Assembly (NCBI RefSeq): GCF_003258365.1
Contig: NZ_QHKM01000009.1
Location: forward strand, 1 to 64,000
Direction of reading: 5' to 3'
DNA from: Hymenobacter edaphi
GTDB taxonomy: Bacteria; Bacteroidota; Bacteroidia; Cytophagales; Hymenobacteraceae
Length of the DNA: 64,000 nt
Part shown: positions 2,795-49,535 of the stretch, one piece after another
Layout: each line of letters opens with the position of its first letter
Numbering within the stretch: the first letter of the stretch is position 1
Program-made: the position numbers and the translations under genes
Notes under the pieces: model-generated
Told to the model about the DNA's origin: nothing
The model's input: only the letters and a program-made list of their open reading frames with translations
The model's database searches: none

Positions 2795-3604
2795 CTAGCG
2801 CACCGGCGAGTCTTTTTCCTTACGAAACTCGTTGAGCACCAGCCGGTCCATAATGCCGGCGGGCAACCACTTGTTCAGAAACACCGTCAGCTTGCCCTTG
2901 CTGGTAAGCACCAGCGTGGGGCTGCGCTGCTGCACGGCCCGCAGAATGTGCTGGGCCACTTCCTCGCTGCTCATCATGCTGGCCTCGTCGCGGGGCGACT
3001 CGCCTTGCTGCGAGCCGTCGGCGGCCAGGGCGGTGTTGCGGATATTGGAGGCGGTGAAGCCGGGGCAGGCCGTGAGTACGTGCACGCCCTGGGGGGCCAA
3101 CTCCGTGCGCAGGGACTCCAGGAAGCCGTTCATGGCAAACTTGGAGGCCGAATAGCCGGTGCGGCCCGGCAGCCCGCGGTAACCGGCAATGCTGGAAATG
3201 CCCACCACGCTACCGCCGCCGCTGAGCAGGTGCGGCAGGGCGTACTTAGTGGTGTAGACGGTGCCGAAGAAGTTGGTTTGCATCAGCCGGCGGATAACGT
3301 CGAGCGAGGCATCGGCGAAAACGGCGCGCATGGAAATGCCGGCGTTGTTGATCAGCACGTCGAGGCGGCCGAAGGCCTGCACGGTTTCGGCCACGGCGCG
3401 CTGGCAGTCGGCTTCCTCGCCCACGTCGGCGCGGATGGCGCGGGCCTCGATGCCCTGGGCGGTTAGCAGAGCGAGCGTTTGCTCCAGGCGGGCCGCGTCG
3501 CGGCCGGTGAAGGCGACGCGGGCCCCGGCCCGGCCAAACGCCAGGGCGCAGGCCTGCCCGATGCCGGAGGTGCCGCCCGTAATCAGAACTACTTTTTCGT
3601 GCAT
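2795..3604 (-). CDS. SDR-family NAD(P)-dependent oxidoreductase
   Basis: A 269-residue classical short-chain dehydrogenase. Visible are the cofactor motif TGGTSGIG near the N-terminus, NNAGI in the middle, and the catalytic Ser followed by YSASK. The frame is open for 33 codons upstream, but MHEKVVLITGG is the usual SDR beginning and a -7 box lies at 3657-3650, so I chose ATG 3604. The C-terminal basic helical tail (about residues 235-269) is seen in SDRs of the DHRS7/YqjQ-like group. Substrate cannot be told. Transcribed leftward, convergent with the BatE-like gene. Confidence 0.9.
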   Translation of the reverse strand: MHEKVVLITGGTSGIGQACALAFGRAGARVAFTGRDAARLEQTLALLTAQGIEARAIRADVGEEADCQRAVAETVQAFGRLDVLINNAGISMRAVFADASLDVIRRLMQTNFFGTVYTTKYALPHLLSGGGSVVGISSIAGYRGLPGRTGYSASKFAMNGFLESLRTELAPQGVHVLTACPGFTASNIRNTALAADGSQQGESPRDEASMMSSEEVAQHILRAVQQRSPTLVLTSKGKLTVFLNKWLPAGIMDRLVLNEFRKEKDSPVR

Positions 3605-3649
3605 GTGCAAAAGCGAAGTTAGGCCGTGGCTGCGGCCAGGACCAGCGGG

Positions 3650-3657
3650 CAAAACTA
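3650..3657 (-). promoter_or_regulatory. -7 box upstream of the SDR gene
   Basis: TAGTTTTG on the minus strand matches TAnnTTTG and lies 46 bp before the chosen ATG. No clear -33 TTG is seen at the right distance. Confidence 0.4.
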
Positions 3658-3813
3658 CGGGCTTTTTTGGCAGGCCCGGGGCCCGGCCGCCTTTGGTCGA
3701 CAAAACTGCCGGAACTGTCGATTTAGGCGCTTAAAAGTTGGATTGAAGGGAGTAAAGCCTTGGATTTACTCGCTACATTTAAGGCGGTGAATTCCCTCCC
3801 TACCGTCTACTTT

Positions 3814-6045
3814 ATGACGCAGCATCTACGATTTGGGCGCCTGGCGCCGTTGTTTATTGTATTGGCCGGCTGGTTATCAGCCGCATCGGCGGCGGCCCAG
3901 TGCCCGGCCACCACCAGCACCTGCACGCCGGGCTCGGCGCCCTCCTCGTCGTACCCCTTTGCCATGGGTGTTTTCAACGTGACGCTGGGCACCATCAACA
4001 GCACCACCCTGGGCGTGGCCGACGGCTACCGCGACTACTCCTGCACGGTGGGCACCACGCTCAACATCGGGCAGAACTACCCCGTGCAGGTGCGCACCAA
4101 CGCCGCGGCCGACGAGAACGTGCGCGTGTGGATTGACCTCAACAACGACGGTCAGTTCAACAACACGGCCCAGAGCAGCGGCGGCGAGCTGGTGTTCAGC
4201 TCGTCGGGCCGCGGCACGCAGACGGGCACGGTGCGCATCAGCGCCGGGGCCACCACCGGCGTGGCCCTGCGCATGCGCGTGGCCGCCGACTACGTAAACG
4301 CGACCGTGCCTACCCCCTGCTCGACGCCGCAGTACTCGCAGACCGAGGACTACCGCGTGACGCTGCAGGCGGCCACGGCGGCGCCGGTGGCGGCCTTCGT
4401 GGCTGATCAGACCCTGACCTGCTCGGGCTGCGTGCAGTTCACCGACCAGAGCACCAACGGCCCGACCAGCTGGCTGTGGGACTTCGGCGACGGCACGACC
4501 AGCACCCAGCAGAGCCCGCGCAAATGCTACACCACGGCCGGCACCTACACCGTGACGCTGACGGCCACGAACACGACTGGCTCGAACACCAGCACCCGCA
4601 CCGGCTACATCACCTACAACAGCCAGGTGCCGGTGGCGGCCAGCTGTACCCCGGCCACGCTCAACTACTGCTGCAACTACGGCATCACGGCCGTGACGCT
4701 GAGTACGCTCAGCAACACCTCGGCCAGCGGTACGGCCGGCTACCAGGACTTCACCTGCGCCGGTCGGGTGTCGCTGACGGCGGCGACCCGCTACCCGATT
4801 ACCATCATCACCAGCAGCAACCGGCAGGACACGCGCGTGTGGCTGGACATGAACAACGACGGGCAGTTTGCCGGCACCGAGCAGCTGCTGCAGTCGCTCG
4901 ACCAGGCCTCGCCGGTGACGGGCTTTGTGACGATTCCGAACACGGCGGTGACGAACACGCCCCTGCGCCTGCGCATCGTGTCCGACTACGTGGGCTCGAG
5001 CTTTACGGCCTGCGCCGGCGTGCAGCAGGGCCAGGCCGAAGACTACACCGTGACGGTGCTGCCCAACACCCAGCCGCCGGCGGCCGATTTCACCTCCAAC
5101 TACTCCAGCACCTGCACCAACCCGGTGCAGTTCACGGACCAAAGCTCCAACGCCACCAGCTGGGCGTGGACGTTCGGCGACGGCGGCACCTCGACGCAGC
5201 AGAACCCCGTGCACACCTACGCCGCCTCGGGCGTGTACGACGTGGCCCTGACGGCCACCAACGCCTTCGGCAGCCAGACCATGACCAAGCGCGCGTACAT
5301 CGCCGTATCGGTGCCCTGCCTGACGTACTGCGCTTCCTCCGGCACCAACCTCAACTCGTGGATTACCTCGGTGCAGATCAGCGGCGGCTCGCTCGCCACG
5401 CCCTTCGTCAGCACGTCCTCGGCGGATGCCGGCGGCTACGGCAACTACACCACCCGCGTGGCGCAGCTGCGCCAGGGCACCACCTACACGATGAACGTGG
5501 CTACGGCCAACAACTTTCAGCGCACCACCACGGTCTGGATTGACTACAACCGCAACGGCTCGTTTACCGACGCCGGGGAGCAGGTGTTTAACGTGACGGG
5601 CACCACCACCATGTCGGGCCTGCTCAGCGTGCCCACCGCGGCTGCGGCCGCCGGCTTTACTCGCATGCGGGTGCTGATCCGGCTGAATTCCAACGCCCCG
5701 CAGCCCTGCCTGCAGAACCAGGTGAATTCCGAAACGGAGGACTACTCCGTCAACATCTCGCCCGCGCTGGCCACGGCCGGCGCCCGGGAGCTGCCGGGCC
5801 TGGAAGTGTACCCGAACCCCACCGCCGACGGCCACCTGCAGCTGCACCTGGGTGCGACGGCTGCGGGCACCTACGAGGCCACCGTCGAGAACCTGCTCGG
5901 GGCCGTGGTGCTGCGCCAGCCGGTGCGCCTGGGCGCCGCCACCGATGCGGCCCTGAGCCTGAGCCAGCTTCCGCAGGGCGTGTACGTGCTGCGTCTGCGC
6001 GGGGCCAATGGCGAGCAGGCGTCCCGCCGCATCGTGCGCAACTAA
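3814..6045 (+). CDS. Secreted T9SS cargo with GEVED and PKD domains
   Basis: A 743-residue exported protein. The ATG at 3814 gives MTQHLRFGRLAPLFIVLAGW and a typical signal peptide ending AAAQ; a TTG at 3760 in frame is less likely. Three GEVED-type domains are visible, each with a [VT]W[IL]D[LMY]N-NDG/NGSF segment (VWIDLNNDGQF, VWLDMNNDGQF, VWIDYNRNGSF) and ending in EDYxV. Two PKD domains (LWDFGDGTTS, AWTFGDGGTS) separate them. The last about 80 residues (LEVYPNPTADG ... LPQGVYVLRL ... RRIVRN) are a type A T9SS sorting domain. Such proteins are exported through T9SS and anchored at the cell surface or released. Binding target unknown. Confidence 0.9.
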   Translation: MTQHLRFGRLAPLFIVLAGWLSAASAAAQCPATTSTCTPGSAPSSSYPFAMGVFNVTLGTINSTTLGVADGYRDYSCTVGTTLNIGQNYPVQVRTNAAADENVRVWIDLNNDGQFNNTAQSSGGELVFSSSGRGTQTGTVRISAGATTGVALRMRVAADYVNATVPTPCSTPQYSQTEDYRVTLQAATAAPVAAFVADQTLTCSGCVQFTDQSTNGPTSWLWDFGDGTTSTQQSPRKCYTTAGTYTVTLTATNTTGSNTSTRTGYITYNSQVPVAASCTPATLNYCCNYGITAVTLSTLSNTSASGTAGYQDFTCAGRVSLTAATRYPITIITSSNRQDTRVWLDMNNDGQFAGTEQLLQSLDQASPVTGFVTIPNTAVTNTPLRLRIVSDYVGSSFTACAGVQQGQAEDYTVTVLPNTQPPAADFTSNYSSTCTNPVQFTDQSSNATSWAWTFGDGGTSTQQNPVHTYAASGVYDVALTATNAFGSQTMTKRAYIAVSVPCLTYCASSGTNLNSWITSVQISGGSLATPFVSTSSADAGGYGNYTTRVAQLRQGTTYTMNVATANNFQRTTTVWIDYNRNGSFTDAGEQVFNVTGTTTMSGLLSVPTAAAAAGFTRMRVLIRLNSNAPQPCLQNQVNSETEDYSVNISPALATAGARELPGLEVYPNPTADGHLQLHLGATAAGTYEATVENLLGAVVLRQPVRLGAATDAALSLSQLPQGVYVLRLRGANGEQASRRIVRN

Positions 6046-36031: not shown

Positions 36032-36060
36032 TCTAGCCCCACGCAATTGCAGCTTCTAGC

Positions 36061-36068
36061 TAGTTTTG
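36061..36068 (+). promoter_or_regulatory. -7 box of fmt
   Basis: TAGTTTTG matches TAnnTTTG, 20 bp before the fmt ATG. No -33 TTG at proper distance. Confidence 0.35.
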
Positions 36069-36088
36069 CCCGCTCTACGTCGAACCTT

Positions 36089-37045
36089 ATGCCCGAAACC
36101 GTCCCCCTCCGCATCGTCTTCATGGGTACGCCCGAGTTTGCCGTGCCCACCCTGGAAGCCCTGCTGACCTGGCCCGGCTGCCAGGTGGTAGCCGTGGTGA
36201 CGGCGGCCGACAAGCCGGCGGGGCGCGGGCAGAAACTGGCCGAATCGGCGGTGAAGCAGGCGGCGGTGGCCCGTGGCCTGCCCGTGCTGCAGCCGACCAA
36301 CCTGAAGGCGCCGGAGTTTCAGCAGGAGCTGCGCAGCTACGCGGCCGATCTGCAGGTCATTGTGGCGTTTCGGATGCTGCCCGAGGCGGTGTGGAACATG
36401 CCGCGGCTGGGCTCCATCAACATCCACGCCTCCCTGCTGCCCCAGTACCGCGGCGCGGCGCCCATCAACTGGGCCATCATCCACGGCGACCGGGTCACCG
36501 GCGTCACCTCGTTTTTCCTGCAGCACGAAATCGACACCGGCAACCTGATCTTCCAGGACGAGGTGCCCATTGAAGACGAGGACGACTTCGGCGCGGTGTA
36601 CCTGAAGCTGCAGCACGCCGGCGCCGCCCTGGCCCTGCGCACGGTGCAGGCCATTGCCGCCGGCACCGCTCCCAGCATTCCGCAGTCCCCGGGCCGCGGC
36701 GACCTGCGCCCCGCGCCTAAGCTGCAGAAGGAAACCGGCCGCCTCGACTTCCAGCAGCCCGCCGCCGCGCTGGCCAACCTGGTGCGCGGCCTCTCGCCCT
36801 GGCCCACGGCCTTCACCACCCTGCCCGATGGCCGCGGCCTGAAGGTGTTCCGCGCCCGGGCCCTGCCCGGCGCCCCCTCGGCCGACGCGCCCGCCGGCCG
36901 CTGGCTCACCGATGGCCGCAGCTACCTGCGCGTGCAAACCCCGGACGGCCAGTTCGACCTCGTCGACCTTCAGCTCGAAGGCAAGAAGCGCATGCCCGTG
37001 GCCGACTTCCTGCGCGGGTTCAACGCGGCGGTCCTGCAAGGGTAA
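36089..37045 (+). CDS. fmt: Methionyl-tRNA formyltransferase
   Basis: A 318-residue enzyme that formylates initiator Met-tRNA with 10-formyl-tetrahydrofolate. Motifs: VFMGTPEFAVPTLEAL, VTAADKPAGRGQKL, INIHASLLPQYRGAAPINWA (catalytic Asn and His), EIDTGNLI (catalytic Asp) and a C-terminal FMT_C domain (ANLVRGLSPWPTAF). The length fits the family. The ATG at 36089 (MPETVPLRIVFMGTPEF) is the natural start. Its stop codon lies at the edge of the nested palindrome that follows. No peptide deformylase gene is adjacent. Confidence 0.95.
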   Translation: MPETVPLRIVFMGTPEFAVPTLEALLTWPGCQVVAVVTAADKPAGRGQKLAESAVKQAAVARGLPVLQPTNLKAPEFQQELRSYAADLQVIVAFRMLPEAVWNMPRLGSINIHASLLPQYRGAAPINWAIIHGDRVTGVTSFFLQHEIDTGNLIFQDEVPIEDEDDFGAVYLKLQHAGAALALRTVQAIAAGTAPSIPQSPGRGDLRPAPKLQKETGRLDFQQPAAALANLVRGLSPWPTAFTTLPDGRGLKVFRARALPGAPSADAPAGRWLTDGRSYLRVQTPDGQFDLVDLQLEGKKRMPVADFLRGFNAAVLQG

Positions 37046-37046
37046 G

Positions 37047-37222
37047 CTGGCGCCGGTTTAGCTGTCGAAGACGGCGTAACCGGTACCCACCTTCGGGCCG
37101 GCTTTCAGCCGGCGTCCGGCGCCCGGACGAACGGCACGATGTAGCACCGTTCCACGCAGGTTGAAAACCTGCTTTATAGTAGGCACCGGTTACGCCGTCT
37201 TCGATGGCTAAACCGGCGCCAG
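37047..37222. repeat. Large nested palindrome with four inner hairpins
   Basis: Outer arms 37047-37084 and 37185-37222 pair at 36 of 38 positions (two adjacent mismatches). The interior contains four consecutive hairpins: GCCGGC (37097-37102/37108-37113), GTCCGG/CCGGAC (37114-37119/37123-37128), GAACGG/CCGTTC (37129-37134/37147-37152) and GCAGGTT/AACCTGC (37156-37162/37166-37172). It begins 1 bp after the fmt stop codon and ends 36 bp before folA. No reading frame inside. It looks like a MITE/REP-like element or a structured RNA; no target duplication is evident. Confidence 0.85.
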
Positions 37223-37258
37223 TTCTTCCTTCGTTATTTCTCCTGCTCCTTACACCAG

Positions 37259-37744
37259 ATGACTGCCATCGTAGTAGCCCGGGCCGACAACGGCGTTATT
37301 GGGCGCGACAACCAATTGCCCTGGCACCTGCCGGCTGATTTGCGCCATTTCAAGCAGCTCACCAGCGGGCACCCGGTGGTGATGGGCCGCCGCACCTTCG
37401 AAAGCATCGGCCGGCCCTTGCCCAACCGCCGCAACATCGTGGTGACGCGGCAGGCCGGCTGGCAGGCCGCGGGCGTGGAAACTGCCCACTCGGTGCTGGG
37501 CGCGCTGGAAGCCGCCCGCCAGTCGGACGCGGAGGTGTTCGTCATCGGCGGGGCCGAAATCTACCGCGAAGCTCTGCCGGCCGTGGACACGGTGTACCTG
37601 ACCGAAGTGCACCACGCCCCCGCGGGCGACGCCGTGCTACCCGACTTTCCGGCCGAAACCTGGCGCGAGGAAAGCCGGGAGCGGCACGAGCCCGACGACA
37701 AGCACGCCTACGCCTTCAGCTTCGTGACGCTGCGGCGGCGGTAA
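37259..37744 (+). CDS. folA: Dihydrofolate reductase
   Basis: A 161-residue enzyme that reduces dihydrofolate to tetrahydrofolate with NADPH. Motifs: GVIGRDNQLPWHLPADL (with Trp and the catalytic Asp), VVMGRRTFESIG, RRNIVVTR and VFVIGGAEIY. The length is typical. The gene lies just after the nested palindrome and is convergent with the PorU-like gene. The neighbouring fmt also uses folate, so a functional pairing is plausible. Confidence 0.95.
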   Translation: MTAIVVARADNGVIGRDNQLPWHLPADLRHFKQLTSGHPVVMGRRTFESIGRPLPNRRNIVVTRQAGWQAAGVETAHSVLGALEAARQSDAEVFVIGGAEIYREALPAVDTVYLTEVHHAPAGDAVLPDFPAETWREESRERHEPDDKHAYAFSFVTLRRR

Positions 37745-49491: not shown

Positions 49492-49535
49492 CGGCAGAAG
49501 CGCGGGGCCGGCCGTACCCGGCTCCCACTCCGGCC

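Follow-up and report, generated by a model that had tools for sequence, protein, structure and literature searches.

The palindrome between fmt and folA in the window (the whole 64,000-nucleotide stretch of Hymenobacter edaphi DNA analyzed here) is very probably a REPIN-like non-autonomous mobile repeat that a RAYT would move or copy into intergenic sites as single-stranded hairpins. A REP-type element was among the readings offered in the initial annotation, and that reading, more exactly a REPIN/RAYT system, is supported by the presence of copies, by their organization in inverted pairs, by their intergenic placement and by a RAYT gene lying between two of them. In the proposed mechanism, two REP-like units in inverted orientation would form the element, the RAYT, an HUH/Y1 enzyme, would recognize the units as hairpins in single-stranded DNA, and it would then move or copy the element to sites between genes. 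On sequence grounds we conclude that the element would belong with RAYT subclass 2.6.

Anatomy of the element

The palindrome had been described as 180 bp long. Its sequence and location hold, and it measures 176 bp, with CTGG at its left end (37047) and CCAG at its right end (37222). It lies directly after the fmt stop, as had been stated: the upstream ORF ends at 37045, the element begins at 37047, and a further 36 nt separate it from the downstream ORF start at 37259. The gene names fmt and folA come from the initial annotation and were accepted on inspection by eye. Folded as RNA, 37040–37230 gives the four hairpins closed by a long outer stem that had been proposed, at –130.6 kcal/mol; 200 dinucleotide shuffles give –71.3 ± 4.7 kcal/mol (z = –12.6), and not one of them reaches so low an energy. 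The features are as follows.

36047–37045, + strand: fmt ORF (ORF list); stop codon 1 nt before the element
37047–37222, – strand (polarity by core and hairpin-2 type): whole REPIN-like element, 176 bp; bounds from 30 copies and arm model R1
37047–37115, + strand: left arm, a 69-nt unit of hairpin 1, spacer and hairpin 2; R1 80.6 bits
37049–37087, + strand: left hairpin 1, GGCGCCGGTTTAGC...GCGTAACCGGTACC, with a variable self-complementary tip; covariation across copies and cousins
37097–37113, + strand: left hairpin 2, GCCGGCTTTCAGCCGGC (C-type); covariation, helix 2
37116–37153, no strand: core, 38 nt, the two middle hairpins of the four-hairpin head; from the fold, with ends common to other copies and a variable middle
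37154–37222, – strand: right arm, the 69-nt unit inverted; R1 90.7 bits
37156–37172, – strand: right hairpin 2, GCAGGTTGAAAACCTGC on the + strand (T-type); fold and covariation
37182–37220, – strand: right hairpin 1; covariation and R1
37259–37744, + strand: folA ORF, downstream (ORF list); homologue in 8/8 genus genomes, own included
49498–49534, no strand: element-free site in the window; BLAST gap and alignment, with a copy in H. gummosus (L160:1102–1279) and in Hymenobacter sp. CRA2 (L095)

The scores of R1, a structure model of the arm, include the window copy itself in the model. In this copy, the first middle hairpin overlaps the left arm by about 2 nt. Across the family, the element consists of two 69-nt arms, inverted, around a core of about 40 nt. 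In each arm, hairpin 1 (GGCGCCGGTTTAGC...GCGTAACCGGTGCC) spans about 39 nt and hairpin 2 is GCAGGYTTTCARCCTGC. Hairpin 1 contains a conserved internal mismatch (GTTTAGC/GCGTAAC), and its tip is variable, changing freely yet staying self-complementary. Since the ends of the core are conserved, the element has polarity. The foot reads (G)CTGG, with C in arm column 1 in 46/46 rows and G as the outer base in 57/75; the GT[AG]G that marks the foot of canonical REPs does not occur in the flank table. The fetched copies include 81 inverted pairs, the doublet arrangement of REPINs, and lone or partial arms occur too, for example at L177 and, in the own genome, at L025 and L035. Longer cores, giving whole elements of 228–303 bp, are seen at L090, L133, L140, L149, L152, and L173; the L173 core includes a strong hairpin with a T-run behind it, which may be a captured terminator.

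Copies and covariation

A copy search shows that the palindrome is multi-copy. The 29 rows returned from the own genome collapse to 15 sites because the element is palindromic, namely the window copy and 14 others. Matches occur in three of the eight genus genomes, the own genome included. A strict-pattern contig scan, which may omit records close to the window's own genome, returned 67 stretches, all from Hymenobacter: 54 from H. gummosus, 11 from H. jeollabukensis (G002) and 2 from Hymenobacter sp. CRA2 (G005). When R1 was run on 150 family genomes, 38 gave matches at E ≤ 1e-5; many matches were found only in the own genome (26), G002 (25), and G005 (13), and the remaining genomes have 1 to 4 each, with best E values among them of 5.6e-10 (G048) and 6.2e-9 (G006, two matches). 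A 14-nt end pattern allowing one mismatch proved too loose for counting copies, as it gave 18 + 18 matches in the own genome compared to 10 + 4 for the reversed control.

Covariation among copies supports the hairpins inside each arm, indicating that the REP hairpins are maintained. In 46 arms, the set remaining after 8 of 54 listed arms were dropped by hand as rearranged, end-degenerate or weak (two of these scored >53 bits), standard pairs make up 91.5% of the cells of the within-arm hairpins compared to 85.2% after shuffling, and there are 59 double-change cells compared to 22.3, a number reached in 0 of 500 shuffles. In an alignment of 53 matches from 21 of 44 RAYT-related sources, which was fitted to the structure and in which two rows are opposite-strand readings of the L194 arms, 95.3% of cells are paired compared to 75.8%, with 202 double-change cells compared to 60.8 and double changes in 21 of the 23 pairs. 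The initial annotation had held that its reading would fall if the palindrome were conserved at this one site only, without other copies and without covariation, and on none of the three counts is this the case.

The 38-bp outer stem described earlier is present in the fold of the window copy but does not hold up as a conserved structure, as the arms of one element pair with each other about as well as arms of different copies. Among 18 elements, tip pairing between arms is 68.1% compared to 62.8 ± 4.2% when the arms are shuffled, with 208 of 2000 shuffles at least reaching the observed value, whereas inside the arm it is 75.8% compared to 50.7%. For H. gummosus (45/55 elements parsed), pairing between arms equals that of arms from different elements, both being 0.742, and identical tips are found in both arms of 4 elements, with 3.90 expected. 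A smaller set (13/26 elements parsed) gives 0.831 compared to 0.688 ± 0.080, a mild excess that goes against a within-arm-only reading. Tips fully complementary between the arms are found in 3 of the 18 elements, including the window copy. With between-arm tip pairing near the shuffled level and within-arm pairing well above it, we rejected the outer stem as a conserved structure, and the constrained unit is thus the double-hairpin arm. The initial annotation had named a structured RNA as another candidate reading; the covariation fits single-stranded DNA and RNA equally well.

Insertion sites and RAYT genes

The fmt–folA gene pair is kept in 8/8 genus genomes (folA by search, the fmt end by eye), and the element is found there only in the own genome. 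The site is therefore without the element in 7/7 relatives, all of them genus genomes, with H. gummosus not among them. Because of this absence, and because its arms are the best-scoring pair in the genome, the fmt–folA copy looks like a late insertion as judged from sequence. The fmt–folA gap of G002 (L102) contains a different, A+T-richer palindrome-like stretch with a repeated ATGGCTAAATGG motif. At the element-free site at 49498–49534 of the window, about 38 nt of other G+C-rich sequence, possibly a scar, stand in place of the element.

Copies are mostly intergenic and often lie directly behind a stop codon, as expected of dispersed multi-copy extragenic repeats. With gene calls from a home-made hexamer gene caller, 72 copies could be classified and 9/81 could not; raw counts are 52 in tandem gene pairs, 12 in convergent and 8 in divergent ones, and 8/72 overlap a called ORF. 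The median distance to a neighboring 3′ gene end is 11 nt (n = 76) and to a 5′ end 49 nt (n = 68). The outer flanks are biased, with G or A on the left in 70/75 and C or T on the right in 69/75. Direct flank repeats in 80 elements do not exceed chance (0 of at least 5 nt, 1 of 4 nt), and thus no target-site duplication is seen.

These observations bear on three other explanations. A structured RNA fixed at this site, or a regulatory leader of folA, would account for a strong fold adjoining folA, but the absence of the element from this position in all seven relatives, together with the dispersed copies, which place the same element at many other sites, makes such a leader scarcely credible. 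Nor does any Rfam family match the element at the gathering score. A relaxed Rfam search gave three sub-threshold matches, which we took as chance, the best of them scoring 26.5 bits with a microRNA model whose threshold is 105; the sole gathering match in the window is a tRNA gene at 1923–1995 on the – strand. It is highly improbable that the element serves the host primarily as RNA, with hairpin 2 and a short T-rich stretch acting as a two-way terminator or mRNA stabilizer between genes. The predominance of tandem gene pairs, the TTTAT-like sequence often found outward of hairpin 2 in either arm and the covariation of the hairpins would all suit this role; however, the T-run is short, presence at orthologous sites is patchy, and insertion between genes would give the same placement. 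As a side effect, such a role is compatible with the REPIN explanation.

The initial annotation had also considered a MITE with long terminal repeats. A DDE-type MITE of this kind would have long terminal inverted repeats, and the transposase of an insertion sequence would mobilize it in trans as double-stranded DNA; the inverted arms, the length of about 180 bp and the numerous copies agree with this. The lack of target-site duplication in the 80 elements speaks against this proposal, as do the constraint on hairpins within each arm rather than on identity between arms and the RAYT gene between two copies, and we regard a DDE-type MITE as highly improbable. The REPIN-like explanation, by comparison, includes such a RAYT as the enzyme that would mobilize the element.

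At locus L194 of H. gummosus, an intact RAYT ORF of 182 aa (3506–4054) lies between copies at 3306–3488 and 4067–4250, 17 nt behind one and 12 nt ahead of the other. The ORF scores 84.9 bits, above the 80-bit cut-off of the NCBIfam model for REP-associated tyrosine transposases, and also passes the Pfam Y1_Tnp cut-off. The exact-family link to a RAYT is this one locus, in a species covered by fetched stretches and not as a whole genome; in the window genome the only RAYT found is not flanked by the same repeats. Because papers describe TnpAREP in this way, we infer that the L194 RAYT would move the element by acting on single strands.

Relatives of the arm accompany RAYT genes more widely. Homologues of the L194 RAYT (E ≤ 1e-20) are present in 94/150 family genomes, and none was found at this threshold in G002, G004, G005, or G006. 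Among the best 30 RAYT loci, 25 have R1 matches (E ≤ 0.1) within 260 bp of the gene, and 61 of the 66 R1 matches at these loci fall within that distance. The five without an R1 match are L209, L211, L216, L227, and L228; other palindromes adjoin the RAYT genes at L209 and L211. Seven folA control loci, a smaller sample of 24 kb, gave no R1 match. A sequence-profile search of 13 RAYT-type loci in the genus detected no arm (best 5.3 bits); with the structure model, cousins of the arm were detected at 4 of them (L030, L109, L115, and L117) and none at the remaining 9. Presence of a RAYT was rejected as a predictor of the family within the genus, since RAYT-type matches occur in 6/8 genomes and do not correspond to the three with the element.

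The one RAYT detected in the window genome shares 52% identity with the L194 RAYT and has one cousin arm per side (about 36 bits each), forming 78-nt inverted repeats; this cousin repeat has 9 matches on five contigs. Because the only RAYT found there is so divergent and has its own cousin repeats, the window family seems orphaned, without its matching enzyme in the genome. The RAYT (L030:1270–2058, contig C41) lies between two single arms (78 nt, 97% inverted) as if it filled the core of an element, and gene and flanking arms together are a possible autonomous form. G002 keeps well-preserved copies although it has no RAYT homologue at E ≤ 1e-20, and G005 likewise has no homologue; RAYT presence and copy preservation therefore do not track each other. 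Strict-pattern arms in the fetched loci number 3 in the own genome, 16 in G002, 2 in G005, and 81 in H. gummosus, but these counts are no basis for a claim of decay because the H. gummosus stretches were chosen by the same pattern and the G002 copies are preserved with no RAYT found. Loss of the RAYT as the cause of repeat decay was rejected in view of the same G002 copies.

Known systems and shared sites

Hymenobacter belongs to the Bacteroidetes. A canonical REP consists of one short hairpin and carries a tag of the GTAG type; the Hymenobacter unit differs from those of Pseudomonas REPINs in combining two hairpins, in lacking this tag and in having tips that match only inside their own arm. 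REPINs and RAYTs as such are already described in parts of earlier papers (PMC3116915, PMC8049555, PMC3733652, PMC6006769). The Hymenobacter element shares the features reported for Pseudomonas REPINs in the relevant passages: a pair of inverted REPs separated by a variable spacer, location outside genes, hairpin formation, association with RAYTs and compensatory changes (PMC3116915). The GTAG and CGTC REP superfamilies are likewise described as palindromic, extragenic and often arranged as head-to-head dimers, with GTAG-type REPs flanking RAYT genes (PMC3733652); compared to these accounts, the Hymenobacter foot has no GTAG or CGTC tag and the unit is longer, at 69 nt. A literature search found no paper joining Hymenobacter with extragenic palindromes or with repetitive palindromic intergenic sequence.

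The closest description is that of RAYT/TnpAREP subclass 2.6 (Bertels group 5) of Bacteroidetes, whose flanking structures are called “atypical” and “weaker” in the passages concerned (PMC6006769); the main text of that paper does not name Hymenobacter. RAYTs of this subclass are given there as 179 aa with the motifs NH[LIV]H, WQ, and YIH[QN]NP, a median HuH–Y distance of 82 aa and SS. The L194 RAYT is similar, with 182 aa, NHVH, WQ, an HuH–Y distance of 84 aa and a C-terminal SS, and differs in its Y-motif, YVHRNP. As in the subclass 2.6 account (PMC6006769), repeats without GT[AG]G stand on both sides of the gene and also occur at other places. The passages on subclass 2.6 give no architecture, whereas the Hymenobacter repeats have double-hairpin arms, inverted pairs and a polar core; the structure is strong rather than weaker, and its tips vary independently in the two arms. 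The Hymenobacter element thus fits the description of subclass 2.6 in these passages and adds an architecture to it.

Eight site pairs among the fetched loci connect the own genome with G002 or G005, and further pairs connect H. gummosus with others; L169/L084 was left out because its match is confined to the element itself. Some sites are common to three of the four copy-rich species. Unexpectedly, two copies at a shared site are barely more similar to each other than copies picked at random. In comparisons at 15 shared sites, some other copy in the second genome always outranked the partner, which ranked 2 to 8 among 4 to 11 copies and whose similarity exceeded the random mean at 10 of the 15. 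Alignment of the cores clearly singles out the partner only for L018/L094 (rank 1 both ways); partner ranks are 1 and 3 for L003/L087, 2 and 7 for L166/L084, 8 and 5 for L165/L086, and 38 and 1 of 80 for L143/L091. Polarity and core alignment together indicate inversion at the same site for L003/L087, L165/L086, and L166/L084, and in the last of these a rare long tip also switches side. Polarity is opposite without good core support in L179/L081 and L153/L010, and in L018/L094 the polarity calls are opposite while the cores align in the same direction.

One tentative and rather doubtful explanation is that resident copies are rewritten in place: the shared sites would be old, and core, tips and orientation would be exchanged or flipped by RAYT-driven replacement or conversion between copies, while the site itself is retained. 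Independent insertions at favored spots could also explain dissimilar copies at shared sites, as could fast divergence.

Our analysis supplies the anatomy and a covariation-backed structure for one family of the subclass 2.6 type, where the passages of the earlier paper noted only atypical structures (PMC6006769). It also provides a contrast between genomes with and without the matching enzyme. If in-place rewriting is true, the RAYT would be an enzyme that maintains copies and not only a transposase. Whether RAYTs maintain and homogenize resident repeats can be tested directly at the shared sites with differing content.
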